DNA of 64,000 nucleotides from Desulfomonile tiedjei DSM 6799 (lineage in GTDB: Bacteria > Desulfobacterota > Desulfomonilia > Desulfomonilales > Desulfomonilaceae), in the NCBI RefSeq assembly GCF_000266945.1, contig NC_018025.1:5212001-5276000 (forward strand), given 5' to 3'. The translations under genes and the position numbers were made by a program. A model generated the notes under the pieces. That model saw only the letters and a program-made list of their open reading frames with translations, made no database searches and was not told the origin of the DNA. Shown piece after piece: positions 46,641 to 58,245 of this stretch (position 1 is the first letter of the stretch; every line of letters starts with the position of its first letter).

Positions 46641-46669
46641 TTGACAGATCCCAAGACGGAGATTATCTA
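46641..46669 (+). promoter_or_regulatory. Sigma-70-type promoter upstream of mini-ORF and cas operon
   Basis: TTGACA at 46641-46646, exactly 17 nt, TATCTA at 46664-46669. Transcription should start near 46676. No better promoter is seen between here and cas3, so it may drive the mini-ORF, the pseudo-repeat RNA and cas genes together. Confidence 0.6.
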
Positions 46670-46671
46670 AA

Positions 46672-46685
46672 TAAGAAATTTCTTT
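46672..46685 (+). promoter_or_regulatory. Candidate Cascade target matching the pseudo-spacer seed
   Basis: TAAGAAATTTCTTT matches the first 14 nt of the pseudo-spacer at 46962 (TAAGAGATTTCGTT) except at positions 6 and 12. Those are the bases flipped out of the crRNA-DNA hybrid in type I-E Cascade. AAA stands at the PAM position (46669-46671). The site covers the predicted transcription start. Confidence 0.6.
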
Positions 46686-46771
46686 TACAAAGATAACAAA
46701 GTGTTCCAGCAACCTGAATTGTACTCACTCTCGGTCATTCTTTTTGATCCGGTACTCTAAAGGAGGTAATT

Positions 46772-46912
46772 ATGCAACGTGACTCTTTCCTTCCAACTAA
46801 GCGGGGATTCTTCAATGCCATTTTGCTCCGCCTGCAAATAAGAATTCCCCAATCCCGGCTGTTCCCCAGAGGCGTCGAGACCGGGTTCCAATGGTACATC
46901 GACTTCTCGTAA
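46772..46912 (+). CDS. 46-codon mini-ORF (candidate CreT-like element or leader peptide)
   Basis: ATG 46772 stands behind AAAGGAGGT, one of the best ribosome binding sites of the window. The frame runs 46 codons to TAA 46912: basic and hydrophobic (begins MQRDSFLPTKRGFFNAILLR, ends GFQWYIDFS), no known domain. Codons 23-24 are ATA AGA, the kind of rare pair through which some CreT RNA toxins act; whether they are rare in this genome is unknown. Within it, 46859-46884 resembles the first third of the CRISPR repeat (CTGTTCCCCA), perhaps a third, more decayed repeat. It lies between the targeted promoter and the pseudo-repeats, the position of creT in known CreTA loci. Confidence 0.55.
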   Translation: MQRDSFLPTKRGFFNAILLRLQIRIPQSRLFPRGVETGFQWYIDFS

Positions 46913-46931
46913 CATCGCTCTCTACTCCCCT

Positions 46932-47020
46932 TTGTTCCCCACAATACGTGGGGCTGAACCGTAAGAGATTTCGTTGCGAGCCACATGAAAGCTCAGTTCC
47001 CCACAGTGTGGGGATATGGG
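46932..47020 (+). ncRNA. Degenerate repeat - pseudo-spacer - degenerate repeat (CreR/CreA-like guide RNA)
   Basis: Pseudo-repeat 1 (46932-46961) differs from the array repeat by a first-base change, a few loop changes with one extra base, and CTGAACCG for ATGAACCG as 5' handle. Pseudo-repeat 2 (46994-47020) keeps TTCCCCACA and GTGGGGAT but loses the end. In both, the Cas6e stem CCCCAC/GTGGGG is intact while only the loop changes (ATGC to AATAC and AGT). Between them are exactly 32 nt (46962-46993), the spacer length of the array. Cas6e could therefore process a crRNA-like guide from the cas leader transcript. Its seed matches the promoter at 46672. Confidence 0.7.
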
Positions 47021-47128
47021 ATGCCTTTAGCAGGCCTCTGTTTCAGAGGGATCCCTCATGATCACTGTGGTATCTCGGTGGCCCCCGATCATCTTGGAGG
47101 CGACCGCACCGAGTTTCGGGAGGAAAGC

Positions 47129-49864
47129 ATGGGGTCTGAACAATCCGCAAGCTACTTCAGATACTGGTCTAAGGTTGCCAGAGATGCCGATGGCAACCTG
47201 AAATCCTTTCATCTCTTGCCTTATCATTGCCTCGATGTCGCGGCTGTCGGGTATGTGCTAATGCAGAGGCAAATATCATGGATGAATGCTATCACTCGTG
47301 CCTCACCTCTGAGTTTTACAGAGCTTCAGCGTGTTCTTTTGTTGTTTCTCATTGTGCACGACTTTGGCAAGTTCAGTAGTCGCTCGTTTCAGAGTCATGT
47401 ATGGGAAGTGTTCGGCTTATTGCAGAAATGCTCAAGTGTTGTCCCCCATAACGCGCACAGGCACGACGCATTGGGCATGGCACTTTGGGAAGATGAACTG
47501 TTCAGTCGGATCTGGGAAAGGGATTGGTTTACTTCTGGTGTGGAATTCTTGGACGCTTTGAGCTACCTCCAACCTATCTCTCAGGCGTCTTTCGGCCATC
47601 ATGGTCATGCTGTCGATATAGACAAGATCTCTATAGAGGAGGAATTTACTCGCGACGATATTGAGGCTGCTGCTGACTTCTTGGAGTCTTGTGCTGCATT
47701 GCTCGTTCGTCAACCGAGTGTCCTGCCGGAGGACTTGGGCGAGATGTACGACGCATTGAAGGTCCAGTCATGGTTGCTTTCGGGTTTCATAATCTTGTGC
47801 GATTGGATCGGGTCGAATGAGAGCCTGTTCCCTCATTGTTCGCAGCCAATGGCACTTGACGATTATTGGCAGCAGGCATGCAAACTAGCCGAGCACGCAA
47901 TTAAGGCAGCAGGGATTCTTTCTGTTCCACAGTCAGAGTTCAACGGCATGGGGCAGCTTTTTCATAATCTTGCAGATGTGACTCCGAGCCCCCTCCAAGC
48001 ATATGTAAGTGAATGTGACCTTCCTGCCGGCCCTCAGTTGTGGATCATTGAGGACATCACCGGATCGGGAAAAACAGAAGCTGCGATAATGCTCGCCCAT
48101 CGCCTTATGCAGCAGGGATCGGAAGGAATTTTTGTGGCACTCCCGACTATGGCCACGGCGAATGCCATGTACGATCGGATGGCCAAAGCGTACAGAAGCC
48201 TCTTTTCTGCTGATGGACGGCCGTCTCTAGCTCTTGCACACGGCCGACGCAATCTCATGGACGGCTTCACCTCTACGATCCTTGATTTTGAGGGCTCCCT
48301 GCCGACAATGATCCCTGATGAAGGTAGCGAGGAACCGACCGAAGCTTCCGCTGCATGTGCTCGGTGGATAGCTGACAACAAGAAAAAGGCATTTCTGGCT
48401 CATGTGGGGGTGGGGACAATCGATCAGGCGCTGATTGCGGTTCTGCCGGCCAAACATCATACCCTCCGCTTGCTCGGGCTTTCAAATAAGGTGCTTATTG
48501 TGGATGAGGTGCACGCTTGTGATGCCTACATGGCGGAATTACTCAAGGCCTTGCTGCAATTCCACGCGGCCATGGGCGGAAGCGCGATTCTACTCTCCGC
48601 AACTATCCCGAAGGCAATGCGCAAGGCCTTTGCAAATGCTTTTCTCAAGGGATTGAACTCTGAGAAAAGAGCAACTGAGTTTTCTGGCTCTTTCCCCTCA
48701 GTGACACGGATTGGCGCTGACGAGCCCTCGGAGACTGCAGTGGCGCCAAGGTCCGATCTCCGCCGGTCGGTGGTTGTCAAGCTTGTTCACAATGAGGCCT
48801 CAATTCTCAAAGAGATTGTAGACGCTGCCGTTTCCGGTGCTTGCGTTTGCTGGGTTCGCAATACTGTGGCTGACGCAATTAAGGCTTACGAACTGCTTAA
48901 GGGAGAAGCATCCGTGGACAAGGACCGCCTTATGCTATTCCACGCCAGGTACGCAATGGGCCACAGATTGGATAGAGAAAAGGTCGTGCTGAGCAATTTC
49001 GGCAAAGAGTCGAGTCCTGATCAACGACAAGGAGCGATTCTCATTGCCACGCAGGTGGTGGAGCAATCCTTGGATCTCGATTTCGATTTCATGGTTTCTG
49101 ACCTCGCGCCAATCGATTTGCTCATTCAGCGAGCCGGGAGAATCCACCGACACCATCGCGAGTTTCGCGGAAATCTAACACGTGCAGTCTTATGGGTATT
49201 CAGCCCTCCGCTGGTGGAATCTCCTGCTTCCGGCTGGTTTGCCGATTTTTTTCAAGACGCGGCCCATGTGTATGAGGCTCACGGGCATCTCTGGCGTACG
49301 GCTCGTCTGCTCCAAAGCAAAGGTGGATGGACTATGCCGGATGATGCCCGAGACCTTATCGAGGGGGTGTACGGCGAAGAAGGAGAGGAAATTCCAGGCG
49401 GCCTCATGAAGAAGCAAAACGATGCGGAGGGCAGGCGAAGGGCAGAAGGGGCTCAGGGACGATTCAATGCTCTGCAAGTTACGGCCGGATACGAACGTCA
49501 GTTCGGCTCTCTCTTTGCTGACGCTGCAGCTCCCACGCGGTTGGGCGAGCCAAGCGTGACTTTGCGTCTGGCAATACGTTCTGGGGAACGAATTCTACCG
49601 CTCTATGAGCACCATCTGCACGCGTGGATGTTGAGCGAAGTGCAGGTGCGAGAATCACTCGTCGCCAAGTCGAGAGCTACAGAGAAGGAGAAACAACAAG
49701 CCGCGGCCACTATGAGGGACCGGGGCAAGTGGAGTGAGCTCATCATTCTAGAGCAAGCGAGAGACTGTCTGTGGACGGGCAAGGCTAGCGACATAAACGG
49801 CAACCCCATCGAACTTGTCTACAGCATCGATTCGGGCTTGAAAGTTGAGAAAGGGGGAAAGTGA
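47129..49864 (+). CDS. cas3: CRISPR-associated nuclease-helicase Cas3 (type I-E)
   Basis: 911 residues. N-terminal HD nuclease (HLLPYHCLDVAAVGYVL, the HD pair in FLIVHDFGKFSSRSFQSH, later NAHRHDALGM), then a superfamily 2 helicase: GSGKTEAAI (motif I), VDEVHACDAYM (II), LLSATIP (III), TQVVEQSLDLDFD (V) and QRAGRIHRH (VI). It is recruited by Cascade to unwind and degrade target DNA. ATG 47129 is chosen because GGGAGGAAAGC precedes it; the frame upstream runs through the pseudo-repeats and is not credible as protein. The cse1 gene follows after 1 nt. Confidence 0.95.
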   Translation: MGSEQSASYFRYWSKVARDADGNLKSFHLLPYHCLDVAAVGYVLMQRQISWMNAITRASPLSFTELQRVLLLFLIVHDFGKFSSRSFQSHVWEVFGLLQKCSSVVPHNAHRHDALGMALWEDELFSRIWERDWFTSGVEFLDALSYLQPISQASFGHHGHAVDIDKISIEEEFTRDDIEAAADFLESCAALLVRQPSVLPEDLGEMYDALKVQSWLLSGFIILCDWIGSNESLFPHCSQPMALDDYWQQACKLAEHAIKAAGILSVPQSEFNGMGQLFHNLADVTPSPLQAYVSECDLPAGPQLWIIEDITGSGKTEAAIMLAHRLMQQGSEGIFVALPTMATANAMYDRMAKAYRSLFSADGRPSLALAHGRRNLMDGFTSTILDFEGSLPTMIPDEGSEEPTEASAACARWIADNKKKAFLAHVGVGTIDQALIAVLPAKHHTLRLLGLSNKVLIVDEVHACDAYMAELLKALLQFHAAMGGSAILLSATIPKAMRKAFANAFLKGLNSEKRATEFSGSFPSVTRIGADEPSETAVAPRSDLRRSVVVKLVHNEASILKEIVDAAVSGACVCWVRNTVADAIKAYELLKGEASVDKDRLMLFHARYAMGHRLDREKVVLSNFGKESSPDQRQGAILIATQVVEQSLDLDFDFMVSDLAPIDLLIQRAGRIHRHHREFRGNLTRAVLWVFSPPLVESPASGWFADFFQDAAHVYEAHGHLWRTARLLQSKGGWTMPDDARDLIEGVYGEEGEEIPGGLMKKQNDAEGRRRAEGAQGRFNALQVTAGYERQFGSLFADAAAPTRLGEPSVTLRLAIRSGERILPLYEHHLHAWMLSEVQVRESLVAKSRATEKEKQQAAATMRDRGKWSELIILEQARDCLWTGKASDINGNPIELVYSIDSGLKVEKGGK

Positions 49865-49865
49865 T

Positions 49866-51503
49866 ATGGCCTACAATCTTCTCGAAGAAAAATGGATACC
49901 AGTCAGGACTGCAGATGGTTCTAGGCGGAAGGTGGCGCCTTGGGAAATCACTTCCATTGACCATGGCGGTCCTATAGTGGCAATAGACTCGCCCAGAGCC
50001 GATTTCAATGGAGCATTGATGCAGTTCCTCATCGGGTTGGTGCAGACCAGCGAGCTCATTCCAAAAAGGGAACCGGAATGGAGCCGCGGATATCGCTCTC
50101 CGCCAACCGATGCAGCCCTTCGAGATGCATTTCTCGTCCACAAAGATGTTTTCTTCCTGGACGGGGATGGCCCCAGGTTCCTCCAGGATTTAAAGCTGGA
50201 GAACGGGACACCGTGGCCTATCTCAGACCTGCTCATCGAGCTGTCGGGAAACGGGCATTTCACAAAATCCAAAAAGGGCAACGGCTTCTGCTTCTGCTGC
50301 GCTGCAATCGCTCTGTTCTGTCTGCAAACGAATGCTCCGGAAGGAGGCCGCGGTCATCTGACAGGACTCAGGGGCGGTGGACCACTCACCACTTTAGTGC
50401 TTCCACCTGAGCAGGATCTCTGGAAGACGATTTGGCTAAATATAATTCCAGAAGAAGTTTTGATCTCAATGGGGGCGGGAGATGATTCCCCCGACATAAA
50501 AGATATTTTTCCTTGGATGGCACCGACCAGGACAGGCGAGAAGAACACGGGGACAGCAACATTACCCGGGGATGCTCATCCTCTGCAGATGTACTGGTCT
50601 ATGCCGCGGAGGATTCGTATCGATTTCAACGAGCTCGCGACGGGTGCATGCGATGTATGCGGAGAAGAATCAGAATCGCTGGTTCAAGGCTATTTCGCTC
50701 GTCCGCACGGTGTAAAGTACGAGGGTCCCTGGGTCCACCCACTCACGCCTTACCGTTTTGATTCCAATAATGTGCCGATATCACAAAAGGCACGGGCAGG
50801 ATCCCTCAATTATCGGAGCTGGGTTGGGCTGGTCATACGAAGCACGGATGCTGACGAGAAATCCAAGGTACAGTCCCAGCCTGCTCGAGTGGTGGAAAAA
50901 TTCACAAAAAGGTCCAGAGAGGTGGCCGGCAAGCGGACCGGAGCACACTTATGGGGATTCGGATACGATATGGAGCACATGCGTGCAAGATGCTGGTTTG
51001 AGGGCCGGATGCCCATGCATGCCATTTCCGATGAACGAACGGCCGAAAAGTATACGCTGAACTCCGAACGCATGGTAAGAGCGGCAATCACTATCGGCGG
51101 CTTTCTAAGCCTTTGTCTTAGACAGGCATGGTTCGGGGAGCGCGACAAAGTCCGCGGGGACACCGGCTTCGTAGGCGAGGCATTCTGGTCGAGATCGGAA
51201 CATCTCTTCTTCCTGCACCTTGACAAGCTCATTCGGGAACTCGAAACCTCTGACCGGGACCGGTCACTACCGACAGAGACACTGAAATCATGGCATAGGG
51301 TCTTGTGTAAGCTGTCATTGGAACTCTTCGATGTATATGTCACGTCAGGCCCAATTGAGAACAGCAACCCGGCTCGCATAGCACGTGCCAGAAACAGGCT
51401 CAGGTTCTGGCCCCATGGAAAGAAAGTGAAGCGGGACATCCTCGCTCTACCCGATGAGCCAAAGAAATCGAGCGTCTCACAAGTGGAAATTACAAGGAGC
51501 TGA
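49866..51503 (+). CDS. casA: Cascade large subunit Cse1/CasA (Cas8e)
   Basis: 545 residues. It starts MAYNLLEEKWIPVRTADGSRRKVAPWEI, the family hallmark, and contains CFCC and CDVCGEES cysteine pairs seen in many Cse1 proteins. Cse1 reads the PAM and recruits Cas3. ATG 49866 has AAAGGGGGAAAG before it and begins one base after the cas3 stop. Confidence 0.94.
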   Translation: MAYNLLEEKWIPVRTADGSRRKVAPWEITSIDHGGPIVAIDSPRADFNGALMQFLIGLVQTSELIPKREPEWSRGYRSPPTDAALRDAFLVHKDVFFLDGDGPRFLQDLKLENGTPWPISDLLIELSGNGHFTKSKKGNGFCFCCAAIALFCLQTNAPEGGRGHLTGLRGGGPLTTLVLPPEQDLWKTIWLNIIPEEVLISMGAGDDSPDIKDIFPWMAPTRTGEKNTGTATLPGDAHPLQMYWSMPRRIRIDFNELATGACDVCGEESESLVQGYFARPHGVKYEGPWVHPLTPYRFDSNNVPISQKARAGSLNYRSWVGLVIRSTDADEKSKVQSQPARVVEKFTKRSREVAGKRTGAHLWGFGYDMEHMRARCWFEGRMPMHAISDERTAEKYTLNSERMVRAAITIGGFLSLCLRQAWFGERDKVRGDTGFVGEAFWSRSEHLFFLHLDKLIRELETSDRDRSLPTETLKSWHRVLCKLSLELFDVYVTSGPIENSNPARIARARNRLRFWPHGKKVKRDILALPDEPKKSSVSQVEITRS

Positions 51504-51505
51504 GC

Positions 51506-52108
51506 ATGGCTGAAAAGAGATTCATCAACTTTACCCGTAAAACCGAGTGGGGAGAGGCGCTCCAGAAGTGGCATCGCAGGCTCGCCGACAATCGCGGCGA
51601 CCGCGCTGCGCTCAAGAAGTGCAAATCTCTCACGCAGGTAGTGTTTGTACCCGCATATCACGAACTTTACCAAGAGATTACTACTGTCGGGAGAGCAGCC
51701 GCAAAAGCGAAAGCCATCACGTGGTCCTGGGCAAGGCTGGAAGGCCGCGTACGGGATCGCCTCCCTATCATAGCTTCTCTAACCGCTTTGATAGAATCCC
51801 CGAAAGAATCTGATAGAAAGAATGATCCTGAAGACAAGGTAGTAAGCTTGCCTAGCCAAATGGGAGCCATTCGTTCTTCCGGAGGCGGTCCGCTGGTGAG
51901 CGACTTGCGCTTTCGACGCCTGCTCAAATGCCGGACGCCTGAAGAGCTCTACCCCATGCTCAGGCGGGTTATCGGATTGCTCAACAACCAGACCGACATC
52001 ATGAGCCTCGCGCAGAGCATGTTCTACTGGGACGAAGAGATGCGCAAAGAATGGGCCTATGACTACTACACAACCGAAGAGATCGCCAAGGAAGGGAGCG
52101 AATCATGA
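51506..52108 (+). CDS. casB: Cascade small subunit Cse2/CasB
   Basis: 200 residues, helical: RFINFTRKTEWGEALQKWHRRLADNRGDRAALKKCKSL, typical of Cse2, which lines the Cascade belly and holds the non-target strand. It starts 2 nt after the cse1 stop; its stop overlaps the cas7 ATG by 4 nt. Confidence 0.92.
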   Translation: MAEKRFINFTRKTEWGEALQKWHRRLADNRGDRAALKKCKSLTQVVFVPAYHELYQEITTVGRAAAKAKAITWSWARLEGRVRDRLPIIASLTALIESPKESDRKNDPEDKVVSLPSQMGAIRSSGGGPLVSDLRFRRLLKCRTPEELYPMLRRVIGLLNNQTDIMSLAQSMFYWDEEMRKEWAYDYYTTEEIAKEGSES

Positions 52109-53175
52109 CCACATTTCTGCAATTGCATATGTTGACTTCTTATCCACCGTCCAATCTGAATAGAGACGATCTGGGCCGCCCCAAGACTGCTGTCATGGGA
52201 GGTAGCACTCGGCTGCGGATTTCGTCTCAAAGTCTGAAACGGGCGTGGCGCAAGTCGGAAGTCTTCGCATTTCATGTTGCGCCGAGTAATGTCGGCACGC
52301 GTACCAAAGAGAAGGGCAAGGAGATTTTTCGAGACCTTTGTGCCAGTGGGATTGAGGAGGCTCAAGCCAAGGAGTGGGCCAGGACAATAGCCGGGAAATT
52401 CGGCAAACTCAAGTCCAAATCCTCCAAAAAGGATCCTCACGAGGATCTCGATATCGAGCAGCTTGCCCATTTCACTCCGTTCGAGCTCGAGTCTATTGCA
52501 GAGCTTGTGAAAAAGCTGGCTGCCACCAGGCAGGCGCCTTCAGGCGAAGATTTGAATCTCTTGAGGAAAGAGCACACCGCAGTGGACGTAGCCCTCTTCG
52601 GGAGAATGCTGGCCGCAAATCCAGCTTTCAATACCGAAGCAGCAGCCCAGGTTGCCCATGCGATCACGGTTCATGCGGCTGCTGTGGAAGACGACTTCTT
52701 CACCGCTGTCGATGACTTGAACATGGGCGACGAGGACCGGGGATCTGCTCATATGGGTGAGACTGAATTCGGAGCGGGCGTTTTCTATGTCTATATGTGC
52801 GTGGACTGCGAGAGTCTTGTGAAGAATCTTTCTGGACATTCGGACCTGGCCGGAAATGGCATAGCAGGTCTGGTGGAAGCTGGCGCCAAAGTTTCGCCCA
52901 CGGGAAAGCAGAACAGCTTCGCGTCCAGGGCGTACGCGTCCTATATCCTGGCAGAGAGGGGAATACAGCAACCCCGGTCGTTGGCCGTGTCGTTTCTGAA
53001 ACCTGTGACCGGTGATGATTTCCTCGAGAAGGCAATTCAGCGCTTGGAACAGACGCGGAACAGAATCGACACTGCGTACGGGCAATGTTGGGATGATTGC
53101 GCCATAATGAATGCTCACGAAGGCGCAGGCTCGTTGGCCGAGATCCTGCAGTTCGCAAGAGGGTGCGTGTCATGA
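52105..53175 (+). CDS. casC: Cascade backbone subunit Cas7e/CasC
   Basis: 356 residues. It starts [49 protein letters not shown], the Cas7e signature, with a glycine-rich [16 protein letters not shown] segment. Six copies form the crRNA-binding backbone; their thumbs cause the base flip every sixth position. Overlaps the genes on both sides by 4 nt. Confidence 0.95.
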   Translation: [356 protein letters not shown]

Positions 53176-53891
53176 GAGACTATGCAGTGATGCAGCTATA
53201 CGGTCCAATGGCCTCATGGGGCGACATAGCCGTGGGAGAGCTCAGGGGAACCTGGACTCGGCCGAGCAGGTCCGCGCTTATCGGTCTTCTGAGCGCTGCC
53301 CTTGGTGTGACTCGAAAGGATCATAGTACGCTGGAGCGTATGGTCGGATCGTATCGCTTCGCTGTGCGAGTGGATCGTCAGGGAACTCTGATCCAGGATT
53401 TTCACACTTGGCAAAGGCCAGAACCCAAGCGAGGTGTGAAGTATGAGACCCGGAAAGAGGAACTCGAAGCGGAGGATATCGCCACAGGCATTTCGAGACG
53501 AGATTACTGCTGTGATGCCAGGTACGAGGTGTGTATGTGGACAGAAGGTGACGCTCCTCCATTCTCTCTTCAGGAGATCAAGGAAGCTATAGCTCACCCG
53601 CGTTTTGTGCTCTACCTGGGACGCAAGTCGTGTCCTCTCGGTCTTCCCATTGCTGTCAAGATAATCCAGGCCGACTCCGTATGCGAAGCTTTTGAAAGGG
53701 CAGACCGGCAACAGCCCAAAGACTTTCTCGCAGCCATCCGCAGGCAGCCGCCTCTGTTCTTTTCGGACGACTGCCTCCACATAGGCCAGATAGAATCACG
53801 TGACACTTTTACTCGTAGAGACGTTCCCCTGAACAGGACCGCTTGGCAGTTCACGGAACGCCAAGAGTGTTTCGGCGGGTCCCCAGAGTAG
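53172..53891 (+). CDS. casD: Cascade subunit Cas5e/CasD
   Basis: 239 residues. Starts MRDYAVMQLYGPMASWGDIAVGELRGTWTRPSRSALIGLLSAALGV, the Cas5e pattern with the Trp loop; it binds the 5' handle of the crRNA. ATG 53172 overlaps the cas7 stop as ATGA; an earlier in-frame start lies within cas7. Confidence 0.94.
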   Translation: MRDYAVMQLYGPMASWGDIAVGELRGTWTRPSRSALIGLLSAALGVTRKDHSTLERMVGSYRFAVRVDRQGTLIQDFHTWQRPEPKRGVKYETRKEELEAEDIATGISRRDYCCDARYEVCMWTEGDAPPFSLQEIKEAIAHPRFVLYLGRKSCPLGLPIAVKIIQADSVCEAFERADRQQPKDFLAAIRRQPPLFFSDDCLHIGQIESRDTFTRRDVPLNRTAWQFTERQECFGGSPE

Positions 53892-53907
53892 GGAAGGAGG
53901 ATAGAGT

Positions 53908-54594
53908 ATGTATTTCAGTCGCATACGTCTGGACGGAGAACGAGCGTCGGCTGCCGAGCTCACGAAAATGATAGGTCAGGATGGGTATGGAGATCATCAG
54001 ATAATTTGGCAGCTCTTCAAATGCGCTGACAAAAGCGAGCGCGATTTTCTGTTCCGCAAGGAGTCACAGCAATCCTTGCCCGTCTTCTTCACCGTTTCTC
54101 GCACGCCACCCGCGCGCGATCACGGGATATTTCGCCTTAAAACGAAATCGTATGACCCCAAGGTGCGGCCAGGGGATCGTTTCGCCTTTTCCCTCAGGGC
54201 GAACCCGGTGGTCACCCGATGGATTGGGGATAATGAAAAACATCACGCGCGACATGACGTGGTGATGGACGCCAAGCGAAAACTGAAGGCCGACAGCGTG
54301 CCCGAGAGTGAGTGGCCCACCACACCGGAGATCGCGCAATCCGCCGGATTCGAATGGTTAGCAGCCAAGGCGGAGCATGCAGGTTTCGGCGTCGACCGGA
54401 GACTTGTGAGTGTCGAGGGGTATCGACAGCATCAGTTGCGGAAAGGCAAGAACCACCTGATCCGGCTAAGTACCATGGATTTCACGGGCATCCTCACCGT
54501 CACCCATCCCGATCTCTTCGTGACGGCGCTCTTTGGAGGCATTGGTCCTGCGAAAGGTTTTGGTTGCGGATTGCTCTTGATAAGGAGGGTGTAG
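53908..54594 (+). CDS. casE: CRISPR RNA endonuclease Cas6e/CasE
   Basis: 228 residues. The N-terminus MYFSRIRLDG... contains YGDHQIIWQLF, aligning Tyr27 and His30 with the catalytic pair of E. coli Cas6e. The glycine-rich loop GGIGPAKGFGCGLLLI near the C-terminus is intact. It cleaves the repeat 3' of the hairpin CCCCAC/GTGGGG; both pseudo-repeats upstream of cas3 keep this stem. GGAAGGAGG precedes the start. Confidence 0.94.
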   Translation: MYFSRIRLDGERASAAELTKMIGQDGYGDHQIIWQLFKCADKSERDFLFRKESQQSLPVFFTVSRTPPARDHGIFRLKTKSYDPKVRPGDRFAFSLRANPVVTRWIGDNEKHHARHDVVMDAKRKLKADSVPESEWPTTPEIAQSAGFEWLAAKAEHAGFGVDRRLVSVEGYRQHQLRKGKNHLIRLSTMDFTGILTVTHPDLFVTALFGGIGPAKGFGCGLLLIRRV

Positions 54595-54596
54595 TT

Positions 54597-55806
<1,210 letters not shown>

Positions 55807-55896
55807 GTCGCTCCAGTAGAGGCGTTTCTCCTGCGATAACTTGGTAACCCTGGCGAGGTGAAAAATCCTCAATGGTTCTCGAGGCCTATCAATAGT
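55807..55896 (+). promoter_or_regulatory. CRISPR leader
   Basis: About 90 bp between the cas2 stop and the first repeat, on the side from which type I-E arrays grow. No run of AT or clear IHF site is visible, so the leader is short and may begin inside cas2. Confidence 0.55.
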
Positions 55897-57938
55897 CTGT
55901 TCCCCACATGCGTGGGGATGAACCGGAAGGAAAAGCGCTCATCCTTGAGCTGCGCGACTGTTCCCCACATGCGTGGGGATGAACCCGTTTTGCAAGTCAA
56001 TAAAACCGCCCCGTTTCTCTGTTCCCCACATGCGTGGGGATGAACCAGTTCACTAGCTATCACAGAATTGCGGGATACCCTGTTCCCCACATGCGTGGGG
56101 ATGAACCTGTTGATGTGGTGCGGGATTCCGGAGGTACGCGCTGTTCCCCACATGCGTGGGGATGAACCGAGATTTTTTCCGTTCACGATATTTCCTCCAC
56201 ACTGTTCCCCACATGCGTGGGGATGAACCGGAATAGCGGTGTGCGATCACCGTGGCGGAATTCTGTTCCCCACATGCGTGGGGATGAACCGGTCTATTTT
56301 GAACTATTTTTTGGACTTCAGACCTGTTCCCCACATGCGTGGGGATGAACCGCCCGCATCCAACACGCTGAGGAACCGCTTGAGCTGTTCCCCACATGCG
56401 TGGGGATGAACCGGTAATGGAGATTCTCTTCCAGATCCGAGGCAACTGTTCCCCACATGCGTGGGGATGAACCGATGTTTCGAGCCTGGTCATACCCCGG
56501 GGGAGGCTGTTCCCCACATGCGTGGGGATGAACCGGTCCCGGTCGATGAATCCATCGTCCGAGGATCCTGTTCCCCACATGCGTGGGGATGAACCGTTAG
56601 GTCTGGAAAAATCACATCGCAACTGGCGCTGTTCCCCACATGCGTGGGGATGAACCGGAGGACAACATGATCGCACAGGAAAACAGCAGCTGTTCCCCAC
56701 ATGCGTGGGGATGAACCGTTCCAGCGTTCGCCGGAATCCGCATTTCCGTGCTGTTCCCCACATGCGTGGGGATGAACCGTTTGGGTGGTCCCGAATCGTG
56801 GGTCATTGGCCCTGTTCCCCACATGCGTGGGGATGAACCGAATGCCTGGATCTGCCAGACAAGCTCTACACACTGTTCCCCACATGCGTGGGGATGAACC
56901 GGTCTTTGAATCCGGACGGCACCCCGGTGATATCTGTTCCCCACATGCGTGGGGATGAACCGAAAAACGTGAGCGCAGCGGTGCACAGAAACCCCTGTTC
57001 CCCACATGCGTGGGGATGAACCGATCGTTATATGACAGGTCCCGAGCTGACCGGACTGTTCCCCACATGCGTGGGGATGAACCGCGAGGCGGAGCTTCGC
57101 AGACCGGCTCATGAAACTGTTCCCCACATGCGTGGGGATGAACCGATCACTCGACCGATGATCTTCAATTCTTTGACCTGTTCCCCACATGCGTGGGGAT
57201 GAACCGAAGGCCAGGAAAGCCGATCCGGATGCGACGATCTGTTCCCCACATGCGTGGGGATGAACCGGAGGGTTAAGAGGTCCGGATTCTATAATGGAGC
57301 TGTTCCCCACATGCGTGGGGATGAACCGAGTATTTAAAAAATGATTACTTAAAAAGAGAACTGTTCCCCACATGCGTGGGGATGAACCGAAACTGGTATT
57401 TCACTAGTAACTGCCCACACCCTGTTCCCCACATGCGTGGGGATGAACCGAATTTCTAATGCAAAGAGATGCTTTTACAGTACTGTTCCCCACATGCGTG
57501 GGGATGAACCGAAAGGGCACTGTCCAAACATTAGACGACTTCCCTGTTCCCCACATGCGTGGGGATGAACCGTTGTAGCATCCGCGCAGCAGCGCCCGGA
57601 ATTTCTGTTCCCCACATGCGTGGGGATGAACCGGCAAGATCCGGCAGGAATACGAGGCCGCTATTCTGTTCCCCACATGCGTGGGGATGAACCGCTCATA
57701 TTCGCCTGCAGGAAATTCAAGCCATTCTGTTCCCCACATGCGTGGGGATGAACCGGTTTCTGACAGGCCCGTGACCGGGCCCGGCAACTGTTCCCCACAT
57801 GCGTGGGGATGAACCGATCCTCGACACGAAAAACAACGCCGAGGTCGACTGTTCCCCACATGCGTGGGGATGAACCGTTATGAGAATGAGAAGGAAAGTG
57901 TTGTTCGATCTGTTCCCCACATGCGTGGGGATGAACCG
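55897..57938 (+). CRISPR. Type I-E CRISPR array, 34 repeats and 33 spacers
   Basis: Period is exactly 61 bp throughout (33 x 61 between first and last repeat start). The repeat begins CTGTTCCCCAC, has a loop ATGC, then GTGGGGATGAACC; these 28 bases are unchanged in all 34 copies, including the last. The 29th base, which in type I-E derives from the PAM, is G before 31 of 34 positions but C, A and T before spacers 2, 3 and 4. Spacers are 32 nt. Repeats run in the cas direction, leader at the cas2 side. Open frames through it are repeat artefacts. Confidence 0.99.
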
Positions 57939-57997
57939 CAGCATGCTGCCTCTGTCGGTTTCCGCTTCCTTTCGCCTTGTTGGTTGTGGGGTGCTGG

Positions 57998-58245
57998 ATG
58001 GACGAAAACAGTTTGACCTGGCTAGACCGTGCTCCCAAAATCAAGCTTCTGCGACAAACTGACGAAAAAGAATTATTTCCTCTTACTCCGTCAGAGCAGT
58101 TCGATTGTTTGCTGAATTACTCGAACATCTGGCGAAAATGGCTCTTTTTAAAGTGAATACGGGGTGTCGAGAGCAAGAGGTTTGTGGGCTGCTCCGGGAA
58201 TGGGAGATTCCTATTCCTGAAATGAACACGAGCGTTTTATTCTGA
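57998..58245 (+). pseudogene. Phage-type tyrosine integrase remnant, frameshifted
   Basis: Frame 1 reads MDENSLTWLDRAPKIKLL...FPLTPSEQ; frame 2 continues VRLFAELLEHLAKMALFKVNTGCREQEVCGLLREWEIPIPEMNTSVLF and stops. Together they match the middle of P2/P4-type integrases (LxxHLxxMALFxVNTGCRDQEVCxL...). A one-base shift lies near 58097-58105, and both the N-terminal arm domain and the catalytic Tyr end are gone. It stands between the CRISPR array and a tRNA gene, the usual attachment site for such integrases. Confidence 0.8.

Follow-up and report, generated by a model that had tools for sequence, protein, structure and literature searches.

We describe here a degenerate mini-CRISPR (clustered regularly interspaced short palindromic repeats) guide and a seed-matched target site, which lie on either side of a small open reading frame (ORF) of 46 codons and upstream of the type I-E cas genes of Desulfomonile tiedjei DSM 6799. 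The stretch analysed, called the window below, comprises 64,000 nucleotides (nt), positions 5212001-5276000 of a 6,500,104-bp contig in a genome of 6,527,027 bp and two contigs. Guide, target and ORF recur in a relative of the same family but another genus (genome G009). Based on the comparison of the two genomes, pseudo-spacer and target are very probably a selected guide-target pair through which Cascade would repress the leader promoter. We further lean towards regarding the locus as a type I-E module of CreTA-like character, whose purpose would be the peptide rather than the cas genes, since no other gene stands closer behind the target than the ORF, its ribosome-binding site is strong, and conservation is seen at the protein level. 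The parts of the module, in window coordinates, are as follows.

46641-46669, plus strand: predicted promoter, with -35 box TTGACA (46641-46646), 17-nt spacing and weak -10 box TATCTA (46664-46669).
46669-46671, plus strand: AAA at the position of the protospacer adjacent motif (PAM); AAG in the G009 ortholog.
46672-46685, plus strand: target (protospacer seed), TAAGAAATTTCTTT, matched by positions 1-14 of the pseudo-spacer at 12 of 14.
46760-46766, plus strand: Shine-Dalgarno sequence AAGGAGG of the small ORF, likewise AAGGAGG in G009.
46772-46912, plus strand: small ORF of 46 amino acids, MQRDSFLPTKRGFFNAILLRLQIRIPQSRLFPRGVETGFQWYIDFS, between target and guide, a candidate CreT-like product with a homologue in G009.
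46932-46961, plus strand: first degenerate I-E repeat (ψR1), with a 5-nt loop, TTGTTCCCCACAATACGTGGGGCTGAACCG, read from the sequence.
46962-46993, plus strand: pseudo-spacer (ψS) of exactly 32 nt, read from the sequence.
46994-47013, plus strand: second degenerate repeat (ψR2), hairpin half retained, CAGTTCCCCACAGTGTGGGG; its 3' handle part is degenerate from 47014.

A preliminary description of this DNA had reported two degenerate repeats that share the stem CCCCAC/GTGGGG, enclose exactly 32 nt and differ only in their loops. Stem and spacing can be read directly in the sequence, and the stem of the array repeat (CTGTTCCCCACATGCGTGGGGATGAACCG, 34 exact copies counted in 55881-58000) is retained identically in ψR1 and ψR2. 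The differences are nevertheless not confined to the loops: ψR1 carries one altered handle base, and the handle part of ψR2 is degenerate. The 5' handle predicted from ψR1 is CUGAACCG (CTGAACCG in the mini-CRISPR compared with ATGAACCG in the array). The locus thus contains what is expected of the guide of a CreTA module, namely a CRISPR RNA (crRNA)-like gene with degenerate repeats that keep the Cas6 stem and the handle. A half-repeat within the ORF (CTGTTCCCCA, 46859-46868) was also considered as a third repeat and rejected; the G009 ORF has TTCTTCCCTT at this place (codons 30-33), and the similarity looks like codon chance.

The seed match given in the preliminary description was confirmed at 46672-46685, where ψS 1-14 agrees with the target at 12 of 14 positions and is mismatched only at positions 6 and 12. 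In CreTA modules the small gene next to the guide is preceded by a site that the seed (positions 1-5 and 7-11) matches; here the agreement covers 10 of 10 positions, and positions 13-14 in addition, in both genomes. The analytical chance expectation for agreement at all 12 read positions in the window leader is 0.00016, close to the naive estimate near 0.0001 made earlier. None of 3000 shuffled seeds reached 12/12 in this leader (848 bp, both strands), the best score being 11, obtained twice. The same holds for the stretches behind the 34 exact array repeats, the last of which is possibly flank rather than spacer (0/34, best 10). Throughout the 6.5-Mb genome the seed pattern TAAGANATTTCNTT occurs only in ψS itself and at the target site, compared with four occurrences of the reversed control pattern.

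Furthermore, guide and target were compared between genera. A Cas3 search of 148 relatives yielded 47 genomes with any match, D. tiedjei itself included. In G009, whose Cas3 is 52% identical over query residues 43-391, the interval before cas3 contains the target, AAGGAGG, the ORF, 19 nt, ψR1 with a 5-nt loop, ψS, a ψR2 opening with CAG and then cas3, in the same order and with similar spacing as in the window. The G009 pseudo-spacer is 33 nt long and starts GATAATACGTCGTTTT, and its target GATAAAACGTCTTT starts 41 nt upstream of the ORF start next to the PAM AAG; the ψR1 handle is canonical, and the mismatches between ψS and target within the first 14 nt are again only at positions 6 and 12. 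The two mini-CRISPRs look orthologous because they share three oddities: the 5-nt ψR1 loop, the 19 nt between ORF stop codon and ψR1, and the CAG opening ψR2.

Of the 12 read seed positions, 5 distinguish the two pseudo-spacers (1, 3, 4, 8 and 9), and precisely the same five distinguish the two targets. Each guide therefore agrees with its own target at 12/12 read positions and with that of the other genome at 7/12, a co-variation that rests on two genomes. The preliminary description had raised independent drift of pseudo-spacer and promoter; in G009, the one relative checked for it, both have instead changed together and are still matched. In the G009 leader, 1 of 3000 shuffled seeds reached 12/12 (chance expectation 0.00012), and none of the 34 stretches behind array repeats did (best 11). 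Genome-wide, the G009 seed pattern has the target as its sole site besides ψS, and the reversed control occurs once. We regard this co-variation of guide and promoter across genera as evidence of selection on the pairing.

The guide had been described earlier as aimed at its own cas promoter. A mini-CRISPR guide and a matching site in the predicted promoter region ahead of the cas operon are indeed present, and this promoter may drive cas3; the conserved 46-codon ORF between target and guide had been overlooked, and its presence brings the layout closer to CreTA than to plain CreR. The ORF has a strong AAGGAGG start downstream of the targeted site, which is kept in G009, and is a candidate toxin gene. 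Its homologue at the equivalent G009 site was detected by tblastn with E 4e-6 (7e-6 in the larger set) and 41% identity over 49 columns. Two motifs are common to both ORFs, LP.KR towards the N-terminal end and FP.G.ETG.QW.I.F towards the C-terminal end. Compared with a mutation-matched null model, the BLOSUM score of the whole ORF has a P value of 0.0002, and that of codons 21-46 was exceeded in none of 20000 simulations. The score in frame is 81, versus 26 and 41 in the other two frames. Over codons 24-45, the differences between window and G009 number 7, 4 and 12 at codon positions 1, 2 and 3, respectively; over all 46 codons they are spread more evenly (24, 19 and 26) because the N-terminal half has diverged. 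Thus, null-model score, frame contrast and codon-position pattern argue for conservation at the protein level, and the ORF is very probably translated.

The 46-residue ORF matched no family in Pfam, PHROGs, PADLOC or NCBIfam at E up to 10, nor did its G009 counterpart in Pfam, and a PDB sequence search gave no match at E up to 10. AlphaFold, supplied with the two sequences, proposed a two-strand model (best of five with a mean predicted local distance difference test score of 71.9 and a predicted template modelling score of 0.33; the other four reached a mean of 54-56), for which a PDB fold search returned nothing within the E limit of 0.001, the best value being 2.5. No relative of the ORF was found in phages and plasmids at E up to 1, nor among 70 pattern stretches from viral contigs. 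A Methylorubrum plasmid match to the G009 peptide (E 0.8) was discarded as chance: it runs antisense to two genes, one for an ester cyclase and one hypothetical, and no cas gene is among the 12 features listed in the surrounding 12-kb stretch.

From the anatomy, seed match, co-variation and peptide conservation we infer the following course of transcription, processing, repression and toxicity. The leader promoter would give rise to an mRNA carrying the 46-residue peptide gene, the two-repeat mini-CRISPR and cas3, probably together with the remaining cas genes of the operon. Cleavage by Cas6e at both retained hairpins would then release a crRNA-like RNA with an 8-nt handle, the 32-nt ψS and a 3' hairpin. 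Cascade loaded with this guide may then bind the site at 46672 beside AAA via the first 11-14 nt and block transcription. Continuous pairing would end after about 14 nt, so that Cas3 should leave the target uncut; in vitro, no cleavage of double-stranded DNA was seen at up to 24 paired bases (PMC9427990). Loss of Cascade, its inhibition by an anti-CRISPR or its occupation by other crRNAs would raise the level of the peptide and of any co-transcribed cas genes. The peptide would most likely be a toxin that makes cells Cascade-dependent, and the purpose of the module is probably to impose a cost on the cell upon failure of its defence system. The 46-residue peptide is a concrete candidate for a hitherto undescribed family of toxins that guard CRISPR systems.

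More tentatively, a single promoter and a single transcript may unite a new peptide-toxin family, its own silencing guide and the whole Cascade operon. Cas6e would then free the guide from the leader of the cas mRNA, and one self-limiting loop would set the levels of Cascade, guide and toxin. If true, the locus would act as addiction module and cas autoregulator at once, and loss of Cascade would free the toxin and new Cas mRNA at the same time. As one promoter could serve both, the distinction between CreTA and CreR becomes testable at one locus.

Three other explanations have to be weighed. The guide could act as a CreR that autorepresses the cas operon promoter, with the ORF as a benign leader peptide or accessory passenger. 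This is possible, if rather unlikely: the leader of the cas operon contains both target and guide, and CreR has been published for type I systems (review PMC12737573). No promoter-like site was listed on the plus strand between ψR2 and cas3 either, by a scan that is weak in that it also missed the leader promoter. What CreR leaves unexplained is a peptide with a strong Shine-Dalgarno sequence that is kept as a protein between target and guide in both genera. As in classical CreT, the transcript rather than the peptide might be toxic, for instance by sequestration of rare tRNAs. The characterised CreTs of haloarchaea and Acinetobacter have mini-ORFs but exert their effect as RNAs, for which strong signals for translation initiation are required (PMC8501985, PMC10097628), and the window ORF contains adjacent ATA-AGA codons. 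These codons are replaced by GTC-TCC in G009, however. They are not rare among 15 window genes (AGA 11.0 and ATA 14.4 per 1000), for which reason sequestration of AGA/ATA tRNA was dropped as the favoured toxin mechanism. With conservation at the amino-acid level and an unremarkable folding of the leader RNA (z -0.61), we consider an RNA toxin improbable. A decayed CRISPR remnant with an accidental seed match would account for the degenerate repeats and for a window PAM that is not the best. It is very improbable in view of the chance expectations (0.00016 in the window, 0.00012 in G009), the same mismatch positions in both genomes, five compensated differences between guides and targets, and the conserved stems.

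Several observations weigh against the preferred reading of a toxin gene repressed by Cascade. The target adjoins AAA in the window (AAG in G009), a PAM that is active though not the best for E. coli type I-E (PMC9427990, PMC3338789); it belongs to 14 of 64 PAMs active in E. coli I-E collateral cleavage and is named after AAG, ATG and GAG (PMC9427990). E. coli Cascade did not associate in vitro at 0-12 paired bases (PMC9427990), which counts against strong repression; in a haloarchaeon, a 10-nt seed match was sufficient in vivo (PMC8501985). The -35 box TTGACA is perfect, and the -10 box TATCTA is weak, matching the consensus at only 3/6 positions, which is why the leader promoter was not listed by the consensus scan. 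The only promoter-like site in the cas3 direction listed for G009 (1561-1532) lies well upstream of the target at 1446. Together with the weak -10 box of the window, this means that target and transcription start may not have the same relative placement in the two genomes. Searches of the G009 assembly for Cse1, Cas7 and Cas1 found none of them, and its cas3 is truncated where the contig ends. Cascade may be missing from G009, and a toxin gene that lacks its Cascade would be hard to reconcile with a CreTA-like module. The ORF is also sparsely distributed. Among 395 genomes of the phylum, a draw outside which G009 falls and in which scoring covered no more than 18 preliminary candidates in the genomes listed, it was matched at E up to 0.001 only in its own genome. 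Among 42 genomes of the class it is clearly present in two, the other matches listed having E 0.004 or weaker, so that the module is seen in two genomes only. Finally, no relative of the peptide is known, and its role could be that of a leader peptide or of a regulator.

The characterised Cre cases in the literature covered are haloarchaeal (I-B), from Acinetobacter (I-F) and from Citrobacter (I-E); crenarchaeal cases were not met there. CreR has been reported in type I and V-A systems (review PMC12737573, citing Liu 2023). No report of CreTA or CreR in Desulfomonile was found in the open-access papers searched, the original CreR paper and the supplement of PMC8501985 with its bacterial CreTA predictions lying outside the coverage. 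By layout, the module is bracketed by two published systems. It resembles the type I-E CreTA of Citrobacter rodentium (PMC12055562), which has an I-E Cascade, a crRNA-like guide that lies beside the cas genes and partly matches a PAM-bearing site at a promoter nearby, and a small ORF behind a strong ribosome-binding site, without homologues according to its authors. Translation of this short ORF is required for toxicity (PMC12055562). The C. rodentium module differs in that it is located in the interval from cas3 to casA, its guide being encoded upstream of a 96-bp ORF on the opposite strand to it (PMC12055562), whereas in the window all parts are in tandem upstream of cas3 and the ORF of 46 codons precedes the guide; toxicity was tested in C. 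rodentium and is a candidate property here. The creTA of Halobacterium hubeiense shares the order of parts, the location upstream of the cas operon and the seed at positions 1-5 and 7-11, and its operon promoter is self-repressed, as predicted here (PMC8501985). It belongs to type I-B and uses the PAM TTC, and its mini-ORF of six codons works at the RNA level by sequestering a rare isoleucine tRNA (PMC8501985); the system in the window is type I-E and its 46-residue ORF is conserved as a protein. CreR generally comes without a toxin gene (Liu et al. 2023, via PMC12737573 and PMC12948488), unlike the window with its conserved peptide gene between target and guide. CrePA, in which a guide represses a protein toxin (PMC12737573), is similar in that the guide-repressed gene has a protein product, but CreP typically has a KilA-N domain, and neither 46-residue ORF shows a Pfam match. 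Desulfomonile provides a further I-E example, with guide, target and small peptide gene all pointing in the same direction ahead of cas3.

Downstream of the mini-CRISPR follows a complete type I-E locus.

47129-49864, plus strand: cas3, with an ATG start after GGGAGG that resembles the G009 start.
49866-55806, plus strand: cse1, cse2, cas7, cas5, cas6e, cas1 and cas2 (Cascade and adaptation genes, type I-E), all seven with NCBIfam matches above the cut-off.
55897-57938, plus strand: canonical I-E CRISPR array with a 61-nt period.

The longest cas3 ORF starts at 46985, opening within ψS and passing through ψR2. The ATG at 47129 is the likelier start because it follows GGGAGG and resembles the start in G009. 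Automatic gene calling could place the cas3 start inside ψS and so mask the mini-CRISPR (46985-47128).

Guide-target pairs were also surveyed at 125 other cas3 loci, consisting of 80 named GTDB loci with a related Cas3 (best 80 of 86) and 45 regions from the class or phylum. Cse1 was matched in 45 genomes of the phylum, and 43 of them are represented among these regions, the other two being D. tiedjei itself and G194 (below the cut-off). All loci but one (L189, no Cas3 match) were processed, and 120 of these 124 had at least 600 nt upstream. The survey did not list the G009 module, which was found by separate searches, most likely because the Cas3 query started at 46985 inside ψS and aligned on into the G009 ψR2, which was thereby excluded from the scanned stretch. 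With these filters, a sense mini-CRISPR outside arrays, upstream of cas3 and accompanied by the peptide ORF, was seen only in the window and in G009 (window plus 125 loci).

The survey gave 39 candidates, 24 of which are units of true arrays (L031, L040, L058, L109) and 15 mini-CRISPRs outside arrays. Twelve of the latter, or 11 when the identical sequences L071 and L096 of one strain are counted once, have a target within 600 nt with at least 9 matches among the 10 positions 1-5 and 7-11. Most of these 12, namely ten (9 of 11 distinct), lie antisense and directly downstream of cas3, and the one in L041 is antisense and upstream of cas3. The nine antisense I-E mini-CRISPRs after cas3 (L048, L052, L053, L071, L075, L077, L084, L087, L102), each with a nearby PAM-flanked seed target, come from beta- and gammaproteobacterial loci and one acidobacterial locus and are probably CreR or CreTA guides. 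In L180 (G308, same phylum), a sense mini-CRISPR follows cas3 at about 6197, with a target 166 nt downstream, the PAM GAG and mismatches only at positions 6 and 12 within the first 15. The remaining candidates (L033 at 5991, L062 at 8850, L172 at 3750) had no seed target of at least 9/10 within 600 nt; a second scan with 12 positions and a wider range gave AAG-flanked 10/12 sites for L033 and L062. The 11 distinct pairs follow the match pattern of the window and G009, which speaks for the CreTA-like reading; together with these two they make 13, with the PAMs AAG (10), ATG, GAG and AAA (one each). Position 6 is mismatched in 13/13 and position 12 in 12/13 of these pairs, which were selected on other positions. 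As this exceeds the three quarters expected for free positions, it hints that mismatches at positions 6 and 12 may be favoured.
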